From NCBI RefSeq assembly GCF_014705715.1, contig NZ_JACXLC010000001.1, positions 850,457 to 914,456 on the forward strand: DNA of 64,000 nt, read 5' to 3'. Shown piece by piece: positions 49,349 to 62,526 of the stretch. Position numbers and translations under genes: made by a program. How positions within the stretch are numbered: position 1 is the stretch's first letter; each line of letters begins with the position of its first letter. The DNA is from Erythrobacter rubeus (GTDB lineage Bacteria; Pseudomonadota; Alphaproteobacteria; Sphingomonadales; Sphingomonadaceae). Below the pieces are notes generated by a model. That model had not been told where the DNA came from, did no database searches, and was given only the letters and a program-made list of their open reading frames with translations.

Positions 49349-49365
49349 TGTTCTAGCTGGTTCGA

Positions 49366-49389
49366 TGGTGGGCGTAGGAAGAGTTGAAC
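49366..49389 (-). other. tRNA 3' end remnant, probable attachment site
   Basis: On the minus strand the sequence reads GTTCAACTCTTCC-TACGCCC-A-CCA: T-loop with the invariant TTCAA pattern, 3' T-stem, acceptor strand, discriminator A and CCA. The matching 5' T-stem (GGAAG) is not kept upstream (GAGAG stands there), and no anticodon arm follows. This is what remains at the distal border when an element integrates into a tRNA 3' end; the restored tRNA should lie past the right edge. Confidence 0.7.
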
Positions 49390-49684
49390 TCTCTCGGGGG
49401 TTGAATTTGTCGCTAGAAAACAAAGGCTTGCATTGGCTGGCTGTAATGAGTGTGATAGCGCGCTGTAATAGCCCGGTCAACAACGCGTGGGGATAAGCGC
49501 AAGTAGGCCCTTCATTCTGGGCCCAATGCCGATGGTTGCTGTTAAGAAATAGCGGGCGAGGAACCCGGGCTTGGCCAGGATAGAGTACACCGGGTTGCGG
49601 TTGCTCCACCTGAAAACAGAGTAACCAGTCGGACAAAAGCCCCTGCGCGATGGAAAAATGCCGGAGACGGTCTAGATATAAGCT
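49390..49684. other. non-coding left end of the element
   Basis: About 295 bases between the attachment site and the PIN-like gene. ORFs here lack ribosome sites. It should hold the element-side arm of the attachment site and the promoter of the following gene; no clear repeat or promoter boxes were recognised. Confidence 0.4.
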
Positions 49685-50983
49685 ATGAAGCGCTGCCTTA
49701 TTCTCATTGACATAAACGTGTGCGGATATTTTCAGCGCATGGATCAAATCGACTGGCTAAAGCTAACCGGCTACGACGAATGCACGGTCGTAATTGCTCC
49801 GGTGCTGCTTCGCGAGCTGGAGCGGAAGAAGATCAATGCTAGCTCTCGCAAGTTTAAGCAGCGCTGCGACAAGACCATCAAATTCCTGTCTGCGAAAATG
49901 GAGGAAAGCGATCCCATCCCGCTTAGGCAGTCTGTAGCCCTTATGTTCCGCGATCAAGAGCCTCTGCTGGACTTTAGTGAACACAGGCTCTCTGAGGCTG
50001 TCGATGACGACCATTACATTGCGAGCGGAATTGAGCTTGAAAGCGAAACTGGGAAACAGGTCTTTATCGCGTCAGGTGATACCGGCTTGAAAATGAAGCT
50101 CCGGTCACGCTCCATAGACATTTTAGAACTTCCCAATGAGTTGCGGCTACCCGAGGAACCAGATGATGATGAAAAGGCTAGGCGTGCGGACAAGGCTGAG
50201 TTGGAAAGGCTTCGCAACTCGCTCCCTACGCTTTCCTTAGGTGGGCTAGGGGATAAACCTGTCGCGATAAGTGTATTTCGCGAGATCATACCCGACACTC
50301 TGCCAACTAATGAGGAGATGCTCAAATACCCGCCAAGAAAAGCGCAAACTGATTTCGTTACTGATGAAAGCTTGCGAGGATTAGTAGCCTATTCGAACCT
50401 TATAAACGAAAAGTCAGCAGAACGATGGAATATGCGCCGTGAGAAATATGAAAGCGCATACGAAACTTGGCTGGATCAGCATAAAGCCTGGCTGGCTCGC
50501 ATAAGAAAGATCGAAAGTTTGCGCCTCGCGTTGACAAACGAGGGTTGCTCTATCGCAACTGACGTCGATGTGCATATGTTTGCTCCGCCGGGCATCCGGT
50601 TCTTAGATAGGGACAATGTGCCGGTAGCCCCAGAGCTACCTGATCCCCCTGACTCAAAACGACAAATTTACGATCCCCTAGATTATATCCATAACCTGAC
50701 TTCGCCGCGTATTTCATATGATCAAGAAACCGCTTACGCGGATGACAACGGTAAAGGAGCGATTTTATCAGTTCCTAGCGTAAAGCCAGGCATGACCCGT
50801 GACCTGCCAGAGATATTCATTGAGATCGAAGATGACGCGTTGATCGGGCAGCCCATTCAATTCGCCACGAGTATCAGCTGTGTCGAACGAGAGCCCCAAG
50901 AGGCGAGAATTGAAGTCAGAATTGATGATGGCGGGATCATGCCTCGAAAACGAATACGGTCCGCGCGCGAGATAGGTGAGTGA
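49685..50983 (+). CDS. PIN-like domain protein with long C-terminal extension
   Basis: 432 residues. The first 150 resemble a PIN ribonuclease fold: CLILIDINV (Asp9), VLLRELERKK (Glu44), DDDHYIASGIELE (Asp108/109) and FIASGDTGLKMKL (Asp132), which together give the usual acidic metal-binding set. The remaining 280 residues have no motif I recognise; a coiled part near 210-270 is followed by a beta-rich end. It is AT-richer than the chromosome. As the first gene at the element border it looks like cargo, possibly a defence or abortive-infection nuclease, but this is inference. Confidence 0.65.
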   Translation: MKRCLILIDINVCGYFQRMDQIDWLKLTGYDECTVVIAPVLLRELERKKINASSRKFKQRCDKTIKFLSAKMEESDPIPLRQSVALMFRDQEPLLDFSEHRLSEAVDDDHYIASGIELESETGKQVFIASGDTGLKMKLRSRSIDILELPNELRLPEEPDDDEKARRADKAELERLRNSLPTLSLGGLGDKPVAISVFREIIPDTLPTNEEMLKYPPRKAQTDFVTDESLRGLVAYSNLINEKSAERWNMRREKYESAYETWLDQHKAWLARIRKIESLRLALTNEGCSIATDVDVHMFAPPGIRFLDRDNVPVAPELPDPPDSKRQIYDPLDYIHNLTSPRISYDQETAYADDNGKGAILSVPSVKPGMTRDLPEIFIEIEDDALIGQPIQFATSISCVEREPQEARIEVRIDDGGIMPRKRIRSAREIGE

Positions 50984-51024: not shown

Positions 51025-54000
51025 TTATTCGTCCCACGACTCACGCAGCGCTGTGATGAATGGCGCTACGTAGGGGAGGTTGCTTCCCGGAAGCGACCGG
51101 ATGAGCTTATGCGGATCGCCGCCAATCGTCCCGCCGAATAGATCATCAGCTAGCCCGGCTCCGGGAGCTACAACGCCTCCAAAGAGCCGGTCGGCCCGTT
51201 TGCCGCGAACACCATAGCTGTCGCTCAGGCTCTCTCCCAAATCCCCGCCATAGTTCGACGCGAAGCTTACGCCTAAGTCCATGATGTCGCCGGAGAGACC
51301 GGCGGTGGAGGCGTAGTTAAGCGTGGCGCGGGTCAGCGCCAGCGGCTTGAGGTTGTTCTCCAGGTACTTCTCCCTACGATCCTCAGACATACCGGCCGTC
51401 TTGAGGCCTACGCGGGTCATGTGGATCGGCAGAGCGAAGCTCATGGCAGCCATCAGGTACATGAAGGATTTCATGGCCCCGTAGTTGCGCATGTTTCGAC
51501 CCCACTGTTTTTCAACAGCGGTGATCGAGAAGGTACGGAACTGGAAAAGCATCTTTAGGAAGCCGTTGTGCGCCCACTTCCCGGTCTCCCCGGTGAAGGT
51601 CCTTTGGATGATCTGGGCAGAACCGCGCTCGACTGCCTGGGCCAGTTCGTTGACCTTGTCGGGGGTCAGCGCCTCGCCTTTGAACAGGTCGAGCTTAGTG
51701 ACGCGGCCCTTGCTGTCGAACTCCGCGATCTTGTCCATGTCCTTTCGGAGAGCATCCCGGATCGCGGGAGTGATCCCGATGTCATCCAGGGCTGTATCAT
51801 CGGCCCCGCTCTTGGCGTACTTGACGGCTCGGCGGAGAACCTCCTCGGACATCATCCGGGTCTGCGCAGCCATAATCATCCGGTGCCCGGATAGGATCAT
51901 GTTGGCATGTGCCCCGCCGCGCACGGCGCGCGTCAGGACGCCCATGTCGCTGCCGTTGTACAGCTCGACATCGTTGTCGCGTACATCGAACATGCGGGTC
52001 ATCCAGTAGTCGTCCATACCCACGCCGCCACCCATCTGGTCGATGCTGCGAAGCAGGTCGTTAGGAGCCGTGTGGCCCATGGCGATCTCCCGGACCTCTT
52101 TCATCATACGGGGCATCTCTTTGATGCTGCGGAAAGCAGCCTGGACGCCCAAGGCCGGGATGGCGTTGCCGAACTCGGCGAACTGGGTGAAGGCCATGCC
52201 ACCGAGGCGCGAGGCGCTCGTGGCGAGCCGGATGTTCTCCATCCAATTCCAGTTGGCCTCACCGAACGGGGTGTTGAGGAACTCCGCTGCGATCTGATCG
52301 AAAGCAGCGACATCCTTAGGAGAGGCTCCCGAGGCGATCATGGACTTCTTGAGGACATCCAGGCCCTTCTTGCCCATTACGCCGTACTGCGCGAGAGCAA
52401 CCTCGCCGGAGACCCGGCGGGCGTACGAGCGGTACAGGGCAGGGACGTCAGTGACGAACAGGTCCATAAGTTTGGTCCCGTCCCCGATCTCCTCATCCAG
52501 GTCCAGGCGGAGACGCCGCTTGGTATGCCCTGCGCCGCCCCGGCTGAACTTGCCCATGATCTTGTCGATCTCGGCAGGGTCCATGCTCATGGCTTCTAGG
52601 GCATCCCGGACGATCTGCCCGGCCTCCGGGGAGTGGAGGTTGAAGGGCACCTGGTACATACCGTTGGCAGCGTCGATGCTGCGCTCCAGGTAACGGGCTG
52701 CGAGGCGGTCTGAGAACGCACTGTCGAACCCTTCGATCTCTTGGAACTGACGAGCCAGCACTGTGCGTACTGCGCCCATCTGGTCTGCCGAGAGGGCACG
52801 AACCTTACGGGGGTCTAGGCGGTGAGGCACGTAGCCCACACTGTTGTCTCCGAGCCGTGCGTTACCGATGGTACCGGCGCGCTGCTGCTCTATCCGCATT
52901 TTCTCCATACCGGCCTGAAACAGGTCGGCGGCTTCCACCACGAAGGGGTTGCGATCAAAGGTAGTGCCTGCGGCCTTGCCGTTGCGGCGCTCGATCTCGG
53001 TGAACACCCGGCGATTGAACTGGTTGCGAGCTGAGCCATCCCAGAAGTCCCTGACCACACCGATATTCTCGCGCTTGCGGAACTGGTGAGCCAGATTGTC
53101 GAACCCGTGGAACTGCTCGTTGTACACGCGCTCCCGCATGAACTGCGAGATGGCTGCCGTACGCTGCCGCCCACCGGCACCCTGCGGGTTCTCCAGGAGG
53201 GTGACACCGACGGCTCTAGCTACCGGGCTATCGGAGAGGAGCAGCCGGGTACTTGTGGCCTCCAGGTCTACGCCTGCGAGGATCGTTTTGAGGGCGGCCT
53301 TGTTCACTGGGTTGGCGTCGTCGATCCGAGTTGCCCGTGCGATGGTCTCTTCGACCAAGGCACGTTCGGTTTCATCGGCCACACCGGCCAGGTCGCCACT
53401 CTCTGCCACGCGGGCCTGGAAGTCATCCGACTGGGTCAGCAGCTCTTCGGCTACGCCAAGGCGCTGGCTCTCTGGGATGTCTGCCAGGGCATAGTCCAGG
53501 ACTTCCATGTGCTGATCCCGGATGCGGGAGTTGAGCGCCTCGGTCACCTGCTCGGGGCTGGCACCTTCGCCAAGCTCTAGCTCGACCTGCTCTCGCATCT
53601 CTGCGGAGTAGCGTTCCCGAGCTGCGCGGGCTTGAGCGATCTGCTCAGATACGATCCCGTCGCGGCCTAAGCGATTGGAGGCTGCACCGGCTGCCCATCC
53701 AATCCCGGCACCCGTGAGGGCAGACAGGAGGTACTCGGAGGGGTCAACGTAGTCGCCTGTTGCATCGAGCCCGGCAGTCACCGCAAGGTTACCTACCGCG
53801 CCTTCTCCGGCGGCGGAGGCGAGGGATGCGCCAGGACGCCCCGCTACTGCGAGCGCTCGGCTACCGACACCTGCTAATTGCGCGGCTTTGCCGACGCCGA
53901 GGCCAGCGGCCCATCCAAGAGGATCGAGGATGCCGGTGCCGATCAGGAGGGCGGTGGGCGATGCGGCACTGCCTATCACCTTCTCGCGCTCTCGCTGCTC

Positions 54001-54900
54001 GTCGATCTGCTGATGGATTTGTGTAAGCTCCTCAGAGCTGTTCGCGTCCCGAAGCATTGCGACCTCACGGTCATTCTGGGCGTAGCTCTCGATGTCCTGC
54101 CAGTTCTTTAGGTAGAACGAGTGGAACTCGGGGTCGCCCTCAATCGACTGCTCGCTGAGAGCATCCACGACTTCGCCCGCAAGGGTTTCGGCCATGCCTG
54201 CCTTGAAGCGATCCCAGGCGGTGATTGCCTCTTCCTCTGCCACAGCCTGCTCAGTCGCATCGCGCATTTGTAGCTCGGCACCCGCAGCCGCTTCGTTGAC
54301 CGGCGCGAGGGTCATACCCTCTGTGAGCTTTAGGCTTACCAGCTCTGATACGCTGGGCTTCTTCGGTCGTGGTCGCCGCTTGATCTCACGCAGCTCGGCC
54401 TCAACATCGCCGAACAGCTCACCGGGTGTGCTACCGAGCATCTCGGAGACGGTTGGAACCTTCGGGCGCGGTACGACGGAGTTGCGGGGAGACGCTGGCG
54501 AGACCTCGCCCCCGAGAACACGGGAGCGGTAGGCCTCGTTTATGCGTCCCCAGCGCTTTCGGTCGGGACCGCCGTGGTACTCACCTACGGCAGCCTCCCA
54601 ACTGTTGTCGTTGCGATCCATGCTTTCTTTGAGGTGGAGGGCAGCGACACGCGCTGCGCTCTCCGGGTTTGCGTAAGCATCCACCCCGTACTTATCGAGG
54701 AACAGCTTTCGCGTCTGCGGCATGATCTGATAGACCGTGCGAGCGCCAACCGGGGAAACCTGGTTAGCGTTAGACCGTTCGCCTTTGGTGCGGATCGCGT
54801 TCATGCCCCCCACCGGGAGACCCATCTCGCGCTCCAGCTCGGCCTCGATCTGGTCGTACATGGGGTCCTTGTAGGAAAGGCCCCGGTTAGAGTTACTCAT
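51025..54900 (-). CDS. phage-type internal virion protein with lytic transglycosylase domain
   Basis: 1,291 residues. The N-terminal 130 residues form a SLT/transglycosylase domain: the catalytic-type glutamate Glu41 in TKGERSNANQVSPVGA, then YQIMP and VGEYHGG. A long helical middle follows, with an Ala/Gly-rich hydrophobic stretch near 310-380. The C-terminal part contains further hydrophobic patches and ends in DPHKLIRSLPGSNLPYV. Size and layout recall podovirus internal/ejection proteins (T7 gp16-like), which breach the cell wall during DNA entry. The ATG overlaps the previous stop by eight bases. It is the last gene of the element's operon. Confidence 0.75.
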   Translation of the reverse strand: MSNSNRGLSYKDPMYDQIEAELEREMGLPVGGMNAIRTKGERSNANQVSPVGARTVYQIMPQTRKLFLDKYGVDAYANPESAARVAALHLKESMDRNDNSWEAAVGEYHGGPDRKRWGRINEAYRSRVLGGEVSPASPRNSVVPRPKVPTVSEMLGSTPGELFGDVEAELREIKRRPRPKKPSVSELVSLKLTEGMTLAPVNEAAAGAELQMRDATEQAVAEEEAITAWDRFKAGMAETLAGEVVDALSEQSIEGDPEFHSFYLKNWQDIESYAQNDREVAMLRDANSSEELTQIHQQIDEQREREKVIGSAASPTALLIGTGILDPLGWAAGLGVGKAAQLAGVGSRALAVAGRPGASLASAAGEGAVGNLAVTAGLDATGDYVDPSEYLLSALTGAGIGWAAGAASNRLGRDGIVSEQIAQARAARERYSAEMREQVELELGEGASPEQVTEALNSRIRDQHMEVLDYALADIPESQRLGVAEELLTQSDDFQARVAESGDLAGVADETERALVEETIARATRIDDANPVNKAALKTILAGVDLEATSTRLLLSDSPVARAVGVTLLENPQGAGGRQRTAAISQFMRERVYNEQFHGFDNLAHQFRKRENIGVVRDFWDGSARNQFNRRVFTEIERRNGKAAGTTFDRNPFVVEAADLFQAGMEKMRIEQQRAGTIGNARLGDNSVGYVPHRLDPRKVRALSADQMGAVRTVLARQFQEIEGFDSAFSDRLAARYLERSIDAANGMYQVPFNLHSPEAGQIVRDALEAMSMDPAEIDKIMGKFSRGGAGHTKRRLRLDLDEEIGDGTKLMDLFVTDVPALYRSYARRVSGEVALAQYGVMGKKGLDVLKKSMIASGASPKDVAAFDQIAAEFLNTPFGEANWNWMENIRLATSASRLGGMAFTQFAEFGNAIPALGVQAAFRSIKEMPRMMKEVREIAMGHTAPNDLLRSIDQMGGGVGMDDYWMTRMFDVRDNDVELYNGSDMGVLTRAVRGGAHANMILSGHRMIMAAQTRMMSEEVLRRAVKYAKSGADDTALDDIGITPAIRDALRKDMDKIAEFDSKGRVTKLDLFKGEALTPDKVNELAQAVERGSAQIIQRTFTGETGKWAHNGFLKMLFQFRTFSITAVEKQWGRNMRNYGAMKSFMYLMAAMSFALPIHMTRVGLKTAGMSEDRREKYLENNLKPLALTRATLNYASTAGLSGDIMDLGVSFASNYGGDLGESLSDSYGVRGKRADRLFGGVVAPGAGLADDLFGGTIGGDPHKLIRSLPGSNLPYVAPFITALRESWDE

Positions 54901-55408
54901 GTGATCCTTGTGTTTTCGTGTTCTGAGCTTCGGAGGCAGCCGCGTTCGATTGAAAGCCGGTCGGTCCCCAGCCGTCGCGGTCTGGAGTGCTCGGTGCGGA
55001 CGGTTCCGCAGGGGCAGGGGCTTCGCCGGGGAGCATTTCGGTATAGCCCGCGTCTCCGGTTTCGTTAGAGAGCTGGGCCAAGTCGGCAGCGACCGTCGGT
55101 GCGATGCTGTCTAAATGAGCTTGATCGCCCGAACTCATGTAGTTCGTGAGGGCGACGTTATAGCGCGCGACAGTCGGTATGTCCGACCGAGCAACAAGGG
55201 TTTCGATCCTCTGGAGCGGCCCGCGAAGGGAGGGCCGGGTGCTTAGTAGCTTGGCGAAGCTGCGCTGATAGGCCTTGCCCTCAGGTGTACCCATCCGGAT
55301 CAATGTTGCGGCGGTATCGGTAACCTCTCGCGTATCGATCCCACGGCCCCGAATCTCTAAGAGCGCGGCGGCAGCGGTTGCGCGCTCTCGTTTCGTTAAT
55401 TGGCTCAT
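54893..55408 (-). CDS. small phage-operon protein
   Basis: 171 residues from ATG 55408 (MSQLTKRERATAAAALLEIR). The first 110 residues are helical and charged; the last 60 are Pro/Ala/Ser-rich and probably disordered (GEAPAPAEPSAPSTPDRDG). Start and stop overlap both neighbours (ATGA upstream, eight bases downstream), so it is translated with the 1,291-residue protein and may be its partner. No family recognised; a structural or chaperone role is inference. Confidence 0.65.
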   Translation of the reverse strand: MSQLTKRERATAAAALLEIRGRGIDTREVTDTAATLIRMGTPEGKAYQRSFAKLLSTRPSLRGPLQRIETLVARSDIPTVARYNVALTNYMSSGDQAHLDSIAPTVAADLAQLSNETGDAGYTEMLPGEAPAPAEPSAPSTPDRDGWGPTGFQSNAAASEAQNTKTQGSHE

Positions 55409-55917
55409 GCGATCTCTTTCGCAGGGCCGCGCGTGTAACCGCGTCGGCGGGCAGCGAGGTATTCGCACATGGCCTCACGAGGATCGCCGGGGCAGAGCGC
55501 CAAAATCTCTGCCGGGATTTGTTCGGGTGCCTCATCAAGCAGGTACTCCATGACGTTCGTCCGCAAATCGTAAAACCCGTGTGCAGTGTGCCTACCGACA
55601 GGAGACGTGTTGGTGCGGTGATCCCACTTGGGCGCATCCCAGTCGATCTGCCAAACGCGGTGCAGGACGCCGCCTTGGGCCGAGGCGGCGGAGCTTGTCT
55701 TGTCGGTTACGCGGACATTGCTGATGCGTCCCAGACGCTCAGCCCGGGCCGCTTTGGCGGCTTCTTCTTGCTCTTGCCTGTATTCGGCTTGGGCGTCTGC
55801 CAGCTTACCGGAAAGGTCTGCCACTCGGGCTCTTGCGGTTTTGATCCGCTCAGCCAGTTCCAGGTCAGCTTGCGCCGCTTCCAATTCTGAGGAGAGCCGG
55901 GATATTTCAGTGTTCAT
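55405..55917 (-). CDS. coiled-coil protein of the element operon
   Basis: 170 residues. Residues 1-65 form a long coiled coil (ISRLSSELEAAQADLELAER, DLSGKLADAQAEYRQEQEE). The C-terminal part (GFYDLRTNVMEYLLDEAPEQ, GDPREAMCEYLAARRRGYTR) is globular and unknown to me. AAAGGAC precedes the ATG, and both ends overlap neighbours by four bases (ATGA). It is part of the translation-coupled chain. Confidence 0.65.
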   Translation of the reverse strand: MNTEISRLSSELEAAQADLELAERIKTARARVADLSGKLADAQAEYRQEQEEAAKAARAERLGRISNVRVTDKTSSAASAQGGVLHRVWQIDWDAPKWDHRTNTSPVGRHTAHGFYDLRTNVMEYLLDEAPEQIPAEILALCPGDPREAMCEYLAARRRGYTRGPAKEIA

Positions 55918-56147
55918 TCGGGGGTTGTCCTTTGTGAATGCGGGCGGGTGTCGCCTCGCGTCGATTGTCTGTTTTTATGTCGTGGAGTGCGCCGGGCGCG
56001 CCACTTTGCTGCCTTCGCCCTACGCCGCTCAGCGGCTTTCTCTTCGCGTTCTCGGGTGGTCCGAACCTTTTCTGCGAGAGCAGCAAGGGCGGCTTCCACT
56101 TCTGGCGACGGTGGGGTTTCGTAGGTCGGGCTTTCCTGCTTACCCAC
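55914..56147 (-). CDS. small basic protein of the element operon
   Basis: 77 residues from GTG 56147, which lies inside the end of the previous gene (GTGGGTAA), so it is probably coupled. The N-terminal half is a helix (SPEVEAALAALAEKVRTTRE); the C-terminal half is strongly basic (RRRAKAAKWRARRTPRHKNR) and may bind DNA. A longer frame from ATG 56267 would overlap the previous gene by 128 bases and is less likely. No family recognised. Confidence 0.5.
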   Translation of the reverse strand: MGKQESPTYETPPSPEVEAALAALAEKVRTTREREEKAAERRRAKAAKWRARRTPRHKNRQSTRGDTRPHSQRTTPE

Positions 56148-56460
56148 GGCGGCAATCCACTCGGTAGGCGTTGTAGGCGAGGCGGTATCGAGCCACGAAT
56201 ACACGGTTCTTCTCCGCAGCCTCGGGGGTCTCTTTGGCCCAAGAGGGGAGCTTTTGCCCGGTGGCAATGAGAACGCCTCGGAATACCGCTCGGCGGAATG
56301 CGCAGCGGATTACGTAGTATCTGGCGATGATGCCGAAGCGGCCATCAGGCGTAAGCCGCCCGGCGATGTTCTCATAAACGGGGCAGCGGTCGGGGTCGGC
56401 TGCGAGATACGCAGCGAGGCGCTCGCACCCGGCGTCGGGGGAGCGGGGGAAATTTAGCAT
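56140..56460 (-). CDS. small conserved-looking protein of the element operon
   Basis: 106 residues. AAGGA precedes the ATG. The product contains CERLAAYLAADPDRCPVYEN and IIARYYVIRCAFRRAVF, giving an Arg-rich amphipathic helix pattern and four cysteines. No membrane segment is clear. The family is unknown. It starts 15 bases after the stop of the 298-residue gene and overlaps the following GTG. Confidence 0.55.
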   Translation of the reverse strand: MLNFPRSPDAGCERLAAYLAADPDRCPVYENIAGRLTPDGRFGIIARYYVIRCAFRRAVFRGVLIATGQKLPSWAKETPEAAEKNRVFVARYRLAYNAYRVDCRRG

Positions 56461-57410: not shown

Positions 57411-57665
57411 TTAGCGGGACGCCGCCTCGTCAGGATTGTCGGCTTTCCAGCGGTCGATGGCGGCCTTGTGGACCGACGCCCGGCCTGAGAGGCTACGGCG
57501 CGACCAATCCGGGGCTGGCAGATCGAGGAGGCTTATGATGGCTCTTACTGAGGCGAGCCGGTGAGCATTTCCACGAAAGTACGCGGCCACCTCAGGGTTA
57601 TTCAGGCGGTCGGATACAGTGGCGAGGTCGATAGCGTCGTCCAAGGGGACGGCGGGCAATTCCAT
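57411..57665 (-). CDS. small hypothetical protein, first gene of the element operon
   Basis: 84 residues from ATG 57665 (MELPAVPLDDAIDL), with AAAGGA nine bases upstream. The C-terminal half (RRSLSGRASVHKAAIDRWKA) could form a helix-turn-helix-like pair, but this is weak. A frame open further upstream lacks a ribosome site. It directly follows the tandem repeat region and so is probably the promoter-proximal gene. Confidence 0.55.
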   Translation of the reverse strand: MELPAVPLDDAIDLATVSDRLNNPEVAAYFRGNAHRLASVRAIISLLDLPAPDWSRRSLSGRASVHKAAIDRWKADNPDEAASR

Positions 57666-57876
57666 ATGTTGTCCTTTCGGGGATCGTGTGTTTCGAGTGT
57701 CAATAAATCGAGATAGAGGGTCCGCGCTCATGGCGGCGGTAAATCCATAGAGGAGACCCCCGCCCTCACGGCAGGCTACGAGCAGGGGTCTCCAAAGGAT
57801 CATTGCGCATCAAAGCGCTGAGCACCCCGCGACAAGGACTAAGAAGCGCGGGGGAGAGGGCGGGGAAACCGCCTTG

Positions 57877-57944
57877 TCTCTATGACGGTACCAATTCAGA
57901 TGTCACTGACGCGATGCCGTGCTCTCTATGACGGTATCAGTTCA
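57877..57944. promoter_or_regulatory. tandem 22-base direct repeats, likely operator sites
   Basis: Two copies of TCTCTATGACGGTA(C/T)CA(A/G)TTCA at 57877-57898 and 57923-57944 agree at 20 of 22 positions and start 46 bases apart. They lie in a 311-base gap upstream of the minus-strand operon and just after the two small regulator genes. This is the expected place for binding sites of an element-encoded regulator controlling the operon. Confidence 0.6.
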
Positions 57945-57976
57945 TATAAACGAATACTTTTATGAACGCATTCCTG

Positions 57977-58240
57977 CTAATCACCAGGGGCAATCCGGGT
58001 CATGCGAGCTATGGTCGATGCGTCCACCTCAGGTGGCTCTACGGGCTCATCCGCCGGAGGTTGGGCAGTCTCGCTGCCTTGCTGCTCATACGCCTCTACG
58101 GCGGCGAGTGGGATACGCCAGAGCTTGCCCAGCTTGAAGCCCTTCAGCGATCCGGCATTGAGCAGATCATAGATGAGGGTGGTGGATACGTCCCACCGCT
58201 CGGCGAGCTGCGCAGGGTTGAGCGGAGCTGCGGTGCTCAT
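57977..58240 (-). CDS. excisionase/AlpA-like helix-turn-helix protein
   Basis: 87 residues from ATG 58240 (MSTAAPLNPAQLAERWDVST). The first 55 residues match a MerR-type winged helix (LAERWDVSTTLIYDLLNAGS LKGFKLGKLWRIP...AVEAYE), the excisionase/helix-turn-helix-17 form. The tail is acidic. The ATG overlaps the stop of the upstream regulator (four bases). It could act as a recombination directionality factor for the integrase or as a regulator of the repeat-controlled operon. Confidence 0.75.
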   Translation of the reverse strand: MSTAAPLNPAQLAERWDVSTTLIYDLLNAGSLKGFKLGKLWRIPLAAVEAYEQQGSETAQPPADEPVEPPEVDASTIARMTRIAPGD

Positions 58241-58515
58241 GCGGCCACCCGCTGCGGAGCCGCTGCATTCCACGTGGGCTGCTCTTGGAGCCAGCATTCC
58301 TCATCCGCTAGCTGGTCCGCCCAATGGAGCTGGAGGCGCTCAAGCAGAGCTATCATGGGACCTGCCTTCGGCTGCCTGCCTTGGCGTAGATCGCTTATCA
58401 TCCGCTCACCGCCGCCGCATAGCTGTCCTATTCGCCGTTCACTGAGCAGCGGGCGCGTCTCCAAGAACTCCGCTACGCCCGTGAGGATGAAGGTGCGATC
58501 TGTATTCGTAAGCAT
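58237..58515 (-). CDS. small putative DNA-binding regulator
   Basis: 92 residues from ATG 58515; AGGAGG eight bases upstream is the strongest ribosome site in the element. FLETRPLLSERRIGQLCGGGERMISDLRQGRQPK has the spacing of a Cro/XRE-like helix-turn-helix. No further domain. It is coupled to the excisionase-like gene by ATGA. A repressor of the element is likely but not shown. Confidence 0.65.
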   Translation of the reverse strand: MLTNTDRTFILTGVAEFLETRPLLSERRIGQLCGGGERMISDLRQGRQPKAGPMIALLERLQLHWADQLADEECWLQEQPTWNAAAPQRVAA

Positions 58516-58645: not shown

Positions 58646-59356
58646 TCAGTCAGCCGCTTGCTCAGTAGCTACCGCATTCAAGACCCGGCTAACCTGTGTT
58701 GCCTGCCACTTGCCGCCTCGACGGGTACGTATTCCCTCGGCATTCAGGCGGCGGGCAATCTCAGCCATGCTATCGGCCCCTTCTGCGCGCATCTCAGCTA
58801 TGACCTTGCCTACCCTGGCGCTGAACTCCGCCGCTTTGCTCTGGCGAGCGGTTGTGCCTTTCGTGTGATCGACGGGGACGCGTTTCTGGCCATACTTCGG
58901 GTGCTTCTCTCCGTATTCTCTCCAGCCGCCCAGCTTTGTGCCTCGATCCTTTGCCGCCTTTAGCGCTTCCTTTGTCCGCTTGCTGATTGCCTTCCGCTCG
59001 TGTTGCGCCATTGCGGCCATCACGTGAATGGTCAGCTCATTCGCCTCCGGCATGTCCGCCGCCACGAAGCGCACACCGGCATCCTGTAGCGTAGCGATGA
59101 AGGCCACATTACGGCTCAGTCGGTCGAGCTTGGCGACAAGCAACGTCGCTCCGGTGAGCTGGCACCGGTTAAGTGCCTTTTCCAATTCCGGCCTGTTGTC
59201 CTGCTTGCCGCTCTCCGTCTCAACGTAGGGCGGCGAGAGCAGCTTATCGCCTTCTCGTAGGAAGCCGTTGATAGCCGCTTGTTGTGCCTCCAGCCCGAGG
59301 CCACTGCGCCCCTGCTTTGCCGTAGAGACGCGCATGTAGGCAACGTAGTCAGTCAT
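58646..59356 (-). CDS. serine recombinase (resolvase/invertase family)
   Basis: 236 residues. The catalytic serine is Ser11 in YMRVSTAKQG, with conserved LVAKLDRLSRN and ADMPEANELTIHVMAAMAQ HE. The C-terminus has a helix-turn-helix of the resolvase type (SMAEIARRLNAEGIRTRRGGKW). It is a small-resolvase-like recombinase, not a large serine integrase. AGGAG precedes the ATG. Together with a tyrosine integrase it makes this element unusual; it may resolve multimers or invert a segment. Confidence 0.92.
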   Translation of the reverse strand: MTDYVAYMRVSTAKQGRSGLGLEAQQAAINGFLREGDKLLSPPYVETESGKQDNRPELEKALNRCQLTGATLLVAKLDRLSRNVAFIATLQDAGVRFVAADMPEANELTIHVMAAMAQHERKAISKRTKEALKAAKDRGTKLGGWREYGEKHPKYGQKRVPVDHTKGTTARQSKAAEFSARVGKVIAEMRAEGADSMAEIARRLNAEGIRTRRGGKWQATQVSRVLNAVATEQAAD

Positions 59357-60215: not shown

Positions 60216-60275
60216 GGGTGCCTGGCTTTGGTATTAGGATTCGTGAATCTGCTTGCGCGGCTGAATGTTCTTTGT

Positions 60276-60578
60276 ATGTTCCACGCCGTGCCCAGGCGAT
60301 CCACTCCGCAATCCCGTTATGACGACGACGCATTTCCGATACGGGTCAAAGTGGCTGTGCCCGGAGACGGCTTGGGGGTGTTGCTTGACGAAATCACAAT
60401 TTGGTTGCGAGAGAACCTGCCCAAGGAACGCTATGCGACCCATGCGACGCGCTCCATAGGAACCTTCGCCGTTGCGTATTACTTCCGGAGTATTGAGGAA
60501 GCCGAGAGTTTCCTAACCGCATTCCCGCAAGCAACCTTGGCCGATGGCACAACATTTCGCTCGTATCGGCGGGTTTGA
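60276..60578 (+). CDS. small conserved hypothetical protein
   Basis: 100 residues from ATG 60276. The core FPIRVKVAVPGDGLGVLLDEITIWLREN, then GTFAVAYYFRSIEEAESFLTAFPQ, forms an alternating beta/alpha pattern like a small ferredoxin-like fold. I recall similar proteins of unknown function in alphaproteobacterial mobile elements, without a name. No strong ribosome site; a start 48 bases upstream is possible. It lies between the zinc-ribbon gene and the SRAP gene on the same strand. Confidence 0.55.
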   Translation: MFHAVPRRSTPQSRYDDDAFPIRVKVAVPGDGLGVLLDEITIWLRENLPKERYATHATRSIGTFAVAYYFRSIEEAESFLTAFPQATLADGTTFRSYRRV

Positions 60579-60623: not shown

Positions 60624-61229
60624 ATGTGTAATCTATATCGCATGACAAAGAATGCCGACGAGGTCGCGAAGTGGTTTTCGGCGATCAATGAAGCAGGGGG
60701 CTCCAATTTCGGCAGCGAAGTCTACCCCGGCTATCCGGGTTTGGTGATCGCAGAAGGCAAGGCCCAGAAGATGACCTGGGGGTTTCCGCTTGCTTTGAAG
60801 AGCAAACGGACCGGCCAGCCGCTGAAGCCAAAGCCGGTGAACAATGCGCGCACTGACAAGCTCGATAGCTTCATGTGGCGCTACAGCTTCGAAGAGAGGC
60901 GCTGCTTGATCCCGCTCACTGCTTGGGCAGAGGCGCAGGGGCCCAGGGGTGGGATGACGCGCACTTGGATGAGCCTTCCGAATACCGAGCTGTTCGCGGT
61001 GGGCGGTATATGGCGGGACAGCGACGAGTGGGGACCCTGCTATTCCATGGTGATGACGGATGCCGCTGGAGACGCTGCGGAGGTGCACAGCCGTATGCCG
61101 GTGCTGCTGGGTTCTGAGGATTACGGCAAGTGGACTGAGGGGACGCCAGAAGCGGCGCGGGCGCTTTGCAGGCCATGGGCGGGGCCGCTCAATATCGACC
61201 GCACCTCTGAGCCTTGGTTCAAGAGATAG
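60624..61229 (+). CDS. SOS response-associated peptidase-like (SRAP/YedK/HMCES) protein
   Basis: 201 residues. All the SRAP active-site elements are visible: the N-terminal Cys2 exposed after Met removal (MCNLYR), the NNAR asparagine, the AWAE glutamate and the HSRMPV histidine. SRAP proteins form a covalent thiazolidine link to abasic sites in single-stranded DNA and protect them. It is a cargo gene of the element, in line with single-stranded DNA or damage during transfer. No LexA site was seen upstream. Confidence 0.9.
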   Translation: MCNLYRMTKNADEVAKWFSAINEAGGSNFGSEVYPGYPGLVIAEGKAQKMTWGFPLALKSKRTGQPLKPKPVNNARTDKLDSFMWRYSFEERRCLIPLTAWAEAQGPRGGMTRTWMSLPNTELFAVGGIWRDSDEWGPCYSMVMTDAAGDAAEVHSRMPVLLGSEDYGKWTEGTPEAARALCRPWAGPLNIDRTSEPWFKR

Positions 61230-61482: not shown

Positions 61483-62526
61483 TTATTGCATCTCAGAAAT
61501 TGCGGCAGGCGTCGCTGTAGGATTGACTGGGAGTTCGCCCCGGCCTGCCTCGATAGCTTTCGGCCCACCATCCGGAGGGCTGGCTTTGACCGAAGAAGCT
61601 TGTTCGACTTGCTCCGACGGAAAGGCGTAATCGAGGGCGGAATAAAAACTTTGCGGTATGAATAACCGCGCGGCTGCAATAAATATTGCAAATATGGTCA
61701 GTGCGATCACCGGAAAGCGGTCATGCCAGAAGAAATACCGTCGATAGCGCTCGCCAATTGCGTCGGCAAACCCAGTGATGTCGGAAGCAAGTGCCCCCAC
61801 TTGACTGACCCAATTCGCACTCTCACCCGGATGATTTTGATCGGCGTTTTCTAGTGATTTCTTTACAAGTTCAAGAGTCAATCGGTGCTGTTTGCGCGTC
61901 AATTCAGTTAGGGCGGTAGGGACCCAATCGTAAATATCCTTCAACATCAGCCGAATGCGCTTTTCCTGCGTCACCCCATCGCTGCCCCGTTGCTTCTGGC
62001 CTACGTTATCTCGAAAATTTTCCCACTCATATACTTGATTTTTAGCCTGATCCGCGACGCGCAGCTTTTCGAACTGATCCGGGTCATTTAATTGTTCAAA
62101 GACGAGCGAGAACGCATCCTTTTTATGCTCCAGTCCTTCAAGTGCGCCCAACACAGTGTTTGCTCTGTTGGAGAGTTCTCTCAGCGCGTCGATCTCACCC
62201 CCTATACCGCTTGCCCTCATTAACGGAGTGTTGTGCGCCAACATGCGCTGCTCTGCCCGCCAATAACCAATAGTCATAAAGGCCAGTATAAAGCACGAGC
62301 CGAGAACTAGTAATTTGGGCGAAAATGAAAGGCCGTAGGTGAGGCTACCAAGTCCGACTATGTCCTCACTTCCCGCAGTCCCGGTAGCAACCACGACGGT
62401 AAGCACGCCCCAAAGTAATACGTTCCGCTTTGCTCTCCTATACTCCTCACTTTGATGGAGAGAGGTATCGGCGAAGTTGTCGGGTCGAGATGTGCTAATA
62501 GACATAGAGAAGTGCGTGCTCCTCAT
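61483..62526 (-). CDS. coiled membrane protein of unknown function
   Basis: 347 residues. Two membrane segments near 35-52 and 70-88, then a long cytoplasmic helical/coiled region with Glu, Lys and Arg (LSNRANTVLGALEGLEHKKDA, RKQHRLTLELVKKSLENADQ), and a third segment near 271-291 (FPVIALTIFAIFIAAARLF). A Pro/Ala-rich tail ends the protein. The gene is AT-richer than the phage operon. ATG 62505 is an alternative start. No family recognised; the design resembles anchored effectors or sensors in defence or exclusion systems, which is speculation. Confidence 0.6.
   Translation of the reverse strand: MRSTHFSMSISTSRPDNFADTSLHQSEEYRRAKRNVLLWGVLTVVVATGTAGSEDIVGLGSLTYGLSFSPKLLVLGSCFILAFMTIGYWRAEQRMLAHNTPLMRASGIGGEIDALRELSNRANTVLGALEGLEHKKDAFSLVFEQLNDPDQFEKLRVADQAKNQVYEWENFRDNVGQKQRGSDGVTQEKRIRLMLKDIYDWVPTALTELTRKQHRLTLELVKKSLENADQNHPGESANWVSQVGALASDITGFADAIGERYRRYFFWHDRFPVIALTIFAIFIAAARLFIPQSFYSALDYAFPSEQVEQASSVKASPPDGGPKAIEAGRGELPVNPTATPAAISEMQ

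Follow-up and report, generated by a model that had tools for sequence, protein, structure and literature searches.

Here we report that a minus-strand operon of Erythrobacter rubeus, ending in a gene for a homolog of gp16 of phage T7, is probably the principal operon of an integrative satellite parasitic on T7-like phages (Autographiviridae) that infect Sphingomonadales. The operon lies in a window of 64,000 nt (GCF_014705715.1, NZ_JACXLC010000001.1, 850,457-914,456, forward strand; all coordinates below are in window numbering), within a 14.8-kb element, hereafter W, which we consider to be probably a satellite of a T7-like phage. Its small genes are designated P7 to P2 and the gp16 gene P1 (P0001), and G203 denotes a related element of Qipengyuania qiaonensis 6D47A. 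W is bounded by exact 28-bp repeats of the 3' end of tRNA-Val(GAC). When the two flanks, fused at the repeat, were searched against 40 relatives, three congeners (G020, G004 and G019) gave a contiguous match; in the remaining relatives listed the match is mostly to the right flank or to the tRNA alone, and hence they neither support nor contradict an empty site. The attachment (att) repeats at the tRNA and the empty sites identify W as a site-specific integrative element with its own integrase.

To characterize the gene content of W we applied the Pfam and PHROGs family libraries to its predicted genes, and ran tblastn searches (E<=1e-5) with 12 proteins of Sphingomonas phage Scott (L054), namely portal, scaffold, capsid, two tail proteins, gp14, gp15, gp16, fibre, two terminase subunits and RNA polymerase. 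In the window plus 5.5 kb to its right gp16 alone was matched, and the following 35 kb gave no match; RNA polymerase, portal, major capsid protein, tail and terL were negative by tblastn in W and those 35 kb. W has no recognised gene for capsid, tail, terminase, gp14 or gp15, and the first-pass annotation was right in seeing no capsid genes near the operon. A prophage extending past the window was considered and rejected, as the 40.5 kb searched rightward with the 12 Scott proteins gave no match.

The PHROG 342 profile ("internal virion protein with endolysin domain") spans residues 11-1290 of the gp16 protein (profile positions 11-1227 of 1235, E=3.4e-220), and Pfam sees an SLT domain only, at residues 44-122 of 1,291 (E=3e-8). 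Therefore, of the N-terminal SLT domain and long helical body first read from the sequence, the domain stands, whereas the body is not a generic helical one but homologous to gp16 from end to end; this full-length homology also bears out the assignment to podovirus (T7-type) cell-entry proteins. The best phage match is gp16 of Scott (Autographiviridae; 43% over 99%), and 433 phage records match the protein, 73 of them covering at least 80% of the query in one place. Excerpts of PMC8954989 give E37 as the catalytic glutamate of the T7 transglycosylase domain; E41 (GERSN), invariant in 3/3, falls one column off this residue in the alignment, likewise in Scott and in the prophage G437 described below, and a local gap shift is likely. 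At T7 positions 737, 754 and 761 the element gp16s show, respectively, a gap as in phages, the same residue as T7, and the same residue as most phages; these three mutant positions give no support to the entry role proposed below. The gp16s of W and G203 are 68% identical, with dN 0.27 and dS 1.51 (Nei-Gojobori; dS near saturation), and hence the gene is maintained rather than decaying. In a tree of 21 rows (L076, which gave no usable open reading frame, and L054, L062, L066, L067, L069, L070, L072, L074, L075 and L077 left out) they form one clade with support 100/100, inside the alphaproteobacterial autographiviruses.

Profile PHROG 342 reaches E<=1e-20 in 163 of 396 genomes of the order, and among the matches listed the SLT end alone is covered in all but the E. 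rubeus genome, G203 and G141. The gp16 body alone recovers 2 of 397 genomes of the family (E. rubeus and G437) and 2 of 385 of the class (E. rubeus and, weakly, G951, which also has major capsid protein and tail matches). Searches of genome contigs with the gp16 sequence alone gave no relative, the gp16 alignment search retrieved Qipengyuania only, and two plasmid records were matched, both partially. The stretch in G141 (L023/L053) is a distant gp16-like one at a contig end, with two stops in the matched part and no Scott-like genes nearby.

The setting of gp16 in phages was defined from 24 IMG/VR loci. Capsid, tail or gp15 genes are nearby in 20 of these; the remaining four (L062, L072, L074 and L075) have tail fibre or terminase, and the match in three of these begins within ~0.5 kb of the stretch end. 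P2, P3, P5 and P6 occur in none of the 24. In the same family of bacteria, G437 contains a T7-like prophage (L082/L083, joined coordinates from 3450), probably a temperate autographivirus, with RNA polymerase, portal, capsid, tail, gp14-gp16 and terminase genes and an integrase beside tRNA-His; no att repeats could be located for it, which leaves its ends undefined. Thus, the idea that homologs consistently lie inside complete podovirus genomes, which would have made the operon a simple prophage remnant, holds for the 20 loci and G437, but not for the Qipengyuania element, in which the operon is accompanied by no other recognised phage gene.

This element is 13.4 kb long, lies at tRNA-Tyr between 28-bp repeats, and has the order P7-P6-P5-P3-P2-gp16, the same as W. 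Such conservation in another genus implies that the operon is more than a chance assembly. As in W, gp16 is the only one of the 12 Scott proteins matched in G203 by tblastn; pairs compared other than gp16 are 27-54% identical between the two elements. G203 also has an HTH protein, a serine recombinase and two tyrosine integrases (L051:14176-15216 and L052:3840-5603). In both gp16-bearing elements a SRAP-family gene (window 60624-61229; L052:2747-3340) is paired with a small gene.

The overlaps of 4-8 bases noted at first pass among five genes are confirmed, the junctions of P5-P4-P3-P2-gp16 measuring 8, 4, 4 and 8 bp; the GTG start of P4 is chosen because of the overlap with its neighbor. In G203, P3 and P2 overlap by 4 bp and gp16 starts about 50 bp after P2, so that tight coupling into gp16 is not conserved. 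The proposal that the small partners are counterparts of gp14 and gp15 did not hold up and was rejected for P2 and P3: neither has a PHROG below E=0.01 or a phage record at E<=0.01, and the P3 model (pLDDT 83.7) has no Foldseek match at E<=0.001 in PDB or BFVD. The P2 model is unreliable (pLDDT 51.5). Profiles of P2, P3, P5 and P6 found no relatives in IMG/VR.

Features of W and its operon (window numbering)
Feature	Coordinates	Strand	Remarks
Left attachment repeat, 28-bp copy of tRNA-Val(GAC) 3' end	49363..49390	.	
Accessory gene, PIN_4-like domain	49685..50983	+	weak, 21.1 bits vs cut-off 21.9; no blastp match in Qipengyuania element
gp16-type internal virion/ejection protein, N-terminal transglycosylase domain, 1,291 aa	51025..54900	-	
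P2, helical N-terminal part and Pro-rich tail	54893..55408	-	N-terminal part conserved in small relatives
P3, modeled as long helix and small beta/alpha domain	55405..55917	-	conserved in small relatives
P4, short basic protein, GTG start	55914..56147	-	longer open reading frame extends to 56267
P5	56140..56460	-	47-48% to Qipengyuania element
P6	56475..57371	-	34-36% to Qipengyuania element; weakly related proteins in another two islands
P7, small protein, operon head	57411..57803	-	relatives in G203, G206, G097, G166a
Promoter-like site, T7-type-phage motif	57877..57899	-	position weight matrix score 18.6, highest in whole W
Second, tandem promoter-like site, 46 bp upstream	57923..57945	-	position weight matrix score 13.0
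HTH_17 excisionase-like DNA-binding protein	57977..58297	-	
Serine recombinase (resolvase/invertase)	58646..59356	-	
116-aa protein	60228..60578	+	40% to Qipengyuania element
SRAP (SOS-response-associated peptidase family)	60624..61229	+	also in Qipengyuania element
347-aa protein with hydrophobic stretches (read from sequence)	61483..62526	-	
Tyrosine integrase, 486 aa	62589..64000	-	continues to 64049; adjoins tRNA-Val
Right attachment repeat, 28 bp	64127-64154		just past window; tRNA-Val at about 64130-64204

Part of the operon recurs in smaller elements. The P2 profile detects five of 206 genomes of the order at six places, namely E. rubeus, G203, G206, G097 and two in G166, and a search for P3 in 106 genomes of the class found G206 only. 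The complete small elements are those of G206 (7.3 kb, tRNA-Ala), G097 (7.2 kb, tRNA-Thr) and G166a (7.6 kb, tRNA-Ala), with repeats of 24-25 bp; G166b, at a contig edge, was left out of this count. They contain a recombinase, P7, P3, an extra gene, P2 and an integrase, and are without gp16; the extra gene is evident in G206 and G166a but doubtful in G097. When Pfam was run on three of their integrases and one recombinase, two of the integrases showed a DUF6538 part only, and these are called integrases by similarity to that of W. The P2 tail is longer in all three. PTGEKAR-GVP-like motifs are repeated in the tails of gp16-less elements (L108:12465-13295, L112:13100-13924 and L114:433-1263), and in their place P2 of W and G203 has GWGxxGFQ; these could be short binding motifs. 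The P6 profile detects three of 298 genomes, E. rubeus, G428 (L094/L095) and G535 (L096/L097), the latter two being islands in which a weak P6-like protein is found with type I restriction genes, a resolvase and integrases 39% identical to that of W. Next to its P6-like gene G428 has GAATTGATACCGTC, and the repeat of G428 is of 16 bp only.

Comparison of W and G203 with phages pointed to putative transcription signals. Behind gp16, where T7 has the annotated phi17, T-[TC]-GATACCGTC or a variant occurs within 140 bp in 7 of the 9 phages compared; in L058 and L064 a promoter-like motif lies 250-380 bp behind gp16. The same motif is found 21-22 bp behind the RNA polymerase gene in Scott and G437, and downstream of terminase or lysis genes, at what we take to be the genome end, in Scott, G437 and L064. 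A position weight matrix (PWM) was built from 15 sites in nine T7-type phages, with Babayka (a near-copy of Cd1) and L055 (a near-copy of Scott) left out, and was used to scan, among others, 4 of the 24 IMG/VR gp16 loci. In the phage stretches the gene strand has 14 hits vs 0 at a score of 15.5, a partly circular result. In 4 of 5 elements the highest-scoring site of the element is found upstream of P7, in the pre-operon gap and on the strand of the operon (W 18.6, G203 15.7, G206 17.1, G097 25.1). Multiplying the four gap fractions gives 3.3e-7, a figure that takes only the four fitting elements, treats them as independent and uses gaps from our own gene calls. An 18-mer over-representation search for phage promoters returned only repeats resembling coding low complexity.

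Longer shared non-coding DNA is stronger evidence than the motif scores. The G166a gap is identical to the stretch behind the Scott RNA polymerase gene in 84 of 105 columns, the G097 gap to phage contig L064 in 68 of 86, and the G206 gap to Scott in 23 of 25. Further, a second motif, [CT]ATCTATnTG (motif B), occurs 23-48 bp after the end promoter in Scott, G437 and L064, and the gaps of G206, G097 and G166a together hold four copies, all of them on the strand of the operon, vs one in 186 kb of flanks. The scan for motif B took in 7 of the other 20 IMG/VR loci. Among the 7 hits in 16 phage stretches, a Scott hit and an L068 hit are untied to a known promoter and one in G437 is outside the prophage. 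In T7, an origin lies at phi1.1A/B, phiOR is a further reference point, and ATCTGTT is the pause sequence.

Several observations weigh against a satellite of T7-like phages: 1) The promoter motif is a reading from sequence, first noticed when W and G203 were compared with phages, and the PWM sites were chosen by eye and by pattern from the stretch behind gp16, a choice favoring this interpretation. 2) PWM scores alone discriminate poorly. Of 300 first-order Markov elements each, 1, 8, 1, 0 and 8 attain the top score of W, G203, G206, G097 and G166a, respectively; two sites in the host flank right of W, scoring 18.0 and 17.6, exceed the tops of G203, G206 and G166a; and in G166a the top site (14.8) is elsewhere, the gap site scoring 13.5. 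The threshold of 15.5 was set after the G203 score had been seen, and hence we give a range: from 14 to 17 there are 5 to 3 sites in 50.3 kb of elements (4 at a threshold of 15) vs 2 in 186 kb of flanks. 3) The exact promoter core of W and G203 occurs in four IMG/VR contigs, none with a Scott-like protein match, and in two of them (L116 and L117) lies inside long open reading frames. 4) The long phage-like non-coding DNA is confined to the small elements, W and G203 having short sites only, and exact motif B is absent from W and G203. 5) Pfam and PHROGs gave no match to primase, terS or capsid-remodelling families among the predicted genes of W. 6) Only two gp16-bearing elements of the family were found. 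7) No second full gp16 was found in the E. rubeus genome, and therefore no resident helper is seen. Helper, induction, excision and packaging are themselves deduced.

Of the other explanations, the one that survives best, though we consider it rather improbable, is an anti-phage island in which gp16, with P2 and P3, acts as an infection-induced decoy entering or blocking the helper core, so that T7-like progeny cannot inject, while the element spreads otherwise. Phage-type promoter-like sites would switch such a decoy on only during infection, the islands with related integrases in G428 and G535 have type I restriction genes, and excerpts of PMC11364771 and PMC10884400 describe satellites or prophages interfering with phage tail or virion assembly. 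However, a decoy need not retain all domains, yet gp16 is conserved in its entirety between W and G203, down to the transglycosylase part; in the small relatives, P7-P3-P2 and phage-like DNA persist although gp16 is lacking. The decoy and satellite readings are not mutually exclusive; still, that the element gp16 mainly spoils the helper is unlikely.

That W is an ordinary genomic island carrying gp16 by accident, and that the motifs resembling promoters in W and G203 are due to chance, is very improbable. This account could appeal to the integrase and resolvase, which restriction islands also have, and to the modest single-element motif scores with their two equally high host-flank sites, but it leaves aside the top motif position in four of five elements, the long non-coding homology to phages in the same gap of G166a and G097, and the conserved adjacency of P3, P2 and gp16. 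Reduction of an integrated T7-like prophage to its gp16 is barely credible: G437 proves that integrase-bearing T7-like prophages occur in this family of bacteria, but the neighbors P7-P6-P5-P3-P2 are the same in two elements of two genera at two tRNAs, P7, P3 and P2 are present in elements lacking gp16, the phage loci are devoid of P2, P3, P5 and P6, and gp16 is intact and under purifying selection.

Returning to the satellite, the suggestion made at first pass that the operon's proteins are packaged into a helper's particles gains support as their likely destination. The att repeats and empty sites, the related elements and the T7-type promoter-like sites before the operon are additions to that first reading. 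An incoming T7-like phage would supply the RNA polymerase that reads the operon; Xis and the integrase would excise the element; and phage replication would copy it and the phage terminase package it, possibly in the form of head-to-tail multimers. The element gp16 might then join or replace the helper gp16 in the core and, in the next cell, open the wall and pull in DNA beyond the reach of helper transcription; P2 and P3 could be helper-facing factors. According to excerpts of PMC8954989, transcription drives the entry of most of the T7 genome, and gp16 mutants admit the whole genome without transcription. As the element has no recognised phage RNA polymerase gene, helper transcription could not draw its DNA in, and a gp16 of its own would have an obvious use. 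Whether the element gp16 is in fact carried in particles for delivery we regard as evenly balanced.

More tentatively, and with rather less than even confidence, these elements may constitute a satellite family with copied helper transcription signals. The small members would carry a promoter-plus-ATCTAT-motif module like that behind the phage RNA polymerase gene or downstream of packaging/lysis genes, perhaps an origin or packaging-initiation signal, and the gp16 of the large members would let helper-made particles holding satellite multimers inject without phage transcription. Excerpts of PMC3276506 relate that T7 initiates packaging through a pause of its polymerase at the concatemer junction, and by analogy we would guess that motif B acts like this pause. 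It may also be speculated that the size classes of 7.2-7.6 and 13.4-14.8 kb fit about six or three copies, respectively, in a 43-kb head.

The nearest described kind that we found is PICMI of Vibrionaceae, to judge from excerpts of PMC10803314, in which it adjoins fis and carries a primase and alpA, PICMI115 being packaged as a concatemer of about helper-genome size. The elements share with it small size, integration, lack of capsid genes and the proposed use of helper particles, and W has an HTH_17 gene where PICMI has alpA. Unlike PICMI at fis with its primase, they lie at tRNA-Val, tRNA-Tyr, tRNA-Ala (two) and tRNA-Thr, W has no primase match, and they have T7-phage-like promoter-type sites and, in two cases, gp16. 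With PICI, cf-PICI, P4-like elements and PLE, as far as the same excerpts describe them, they have in common site-specific integration, their own integrase and excision factor, small size and a proposed dependence on a phage, but W gives no match to pri/rep, terS, capsid-size or capsid genes, the proposed helper is T7-like and the phage part is an ejection protein. The phage gp16 (PHROG 342) proteins of Autographiviridae are full-length homologs including the transglycosylase domain, whereas the element gp16s are encoded without gp14, gp15 and capsid genes and form their own well-supported clade. Similarly, the G437 prophage has gp16 of the same kind (44%), the promoter motif and an integrase adjoining a tRNA, but retains the polymerase, structural and packaging genes listed above. 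PICI are defined by an AlpA/Stl-type regulator with pri-rep and packaging-redirecting genes. Of these features W has the HTH_17 gene, with no Pfam or PHROGs match to pri-rep or terS among its predicted genes; capsid genes of its own, the feature of cf-PICI, were not found in W with the Scott panel. Hence, as defining features looked for were not found, we class the elements as phage satellites but not as PICI, cf-PICI or PICMI. Among the matches listed from the open-licence PubMed Central literature we found neither a satellite of T7-like phages nor one with an internal virion protein.

If this interpretation is correct, T7-like phages, the model of transcription-driven DNA entry, have satellites of their own that are triggered by the helper's private RNA polymerase. 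A virion ejection protein encoded without a capsid would separate the builder of the particle from the controller of entry, and whether gp16 alone decides which DNA enters would become testable. These elements would also supply naturally occurring partners with which defence and transduction by autographiviruses in Sphingomonadales could be studied.

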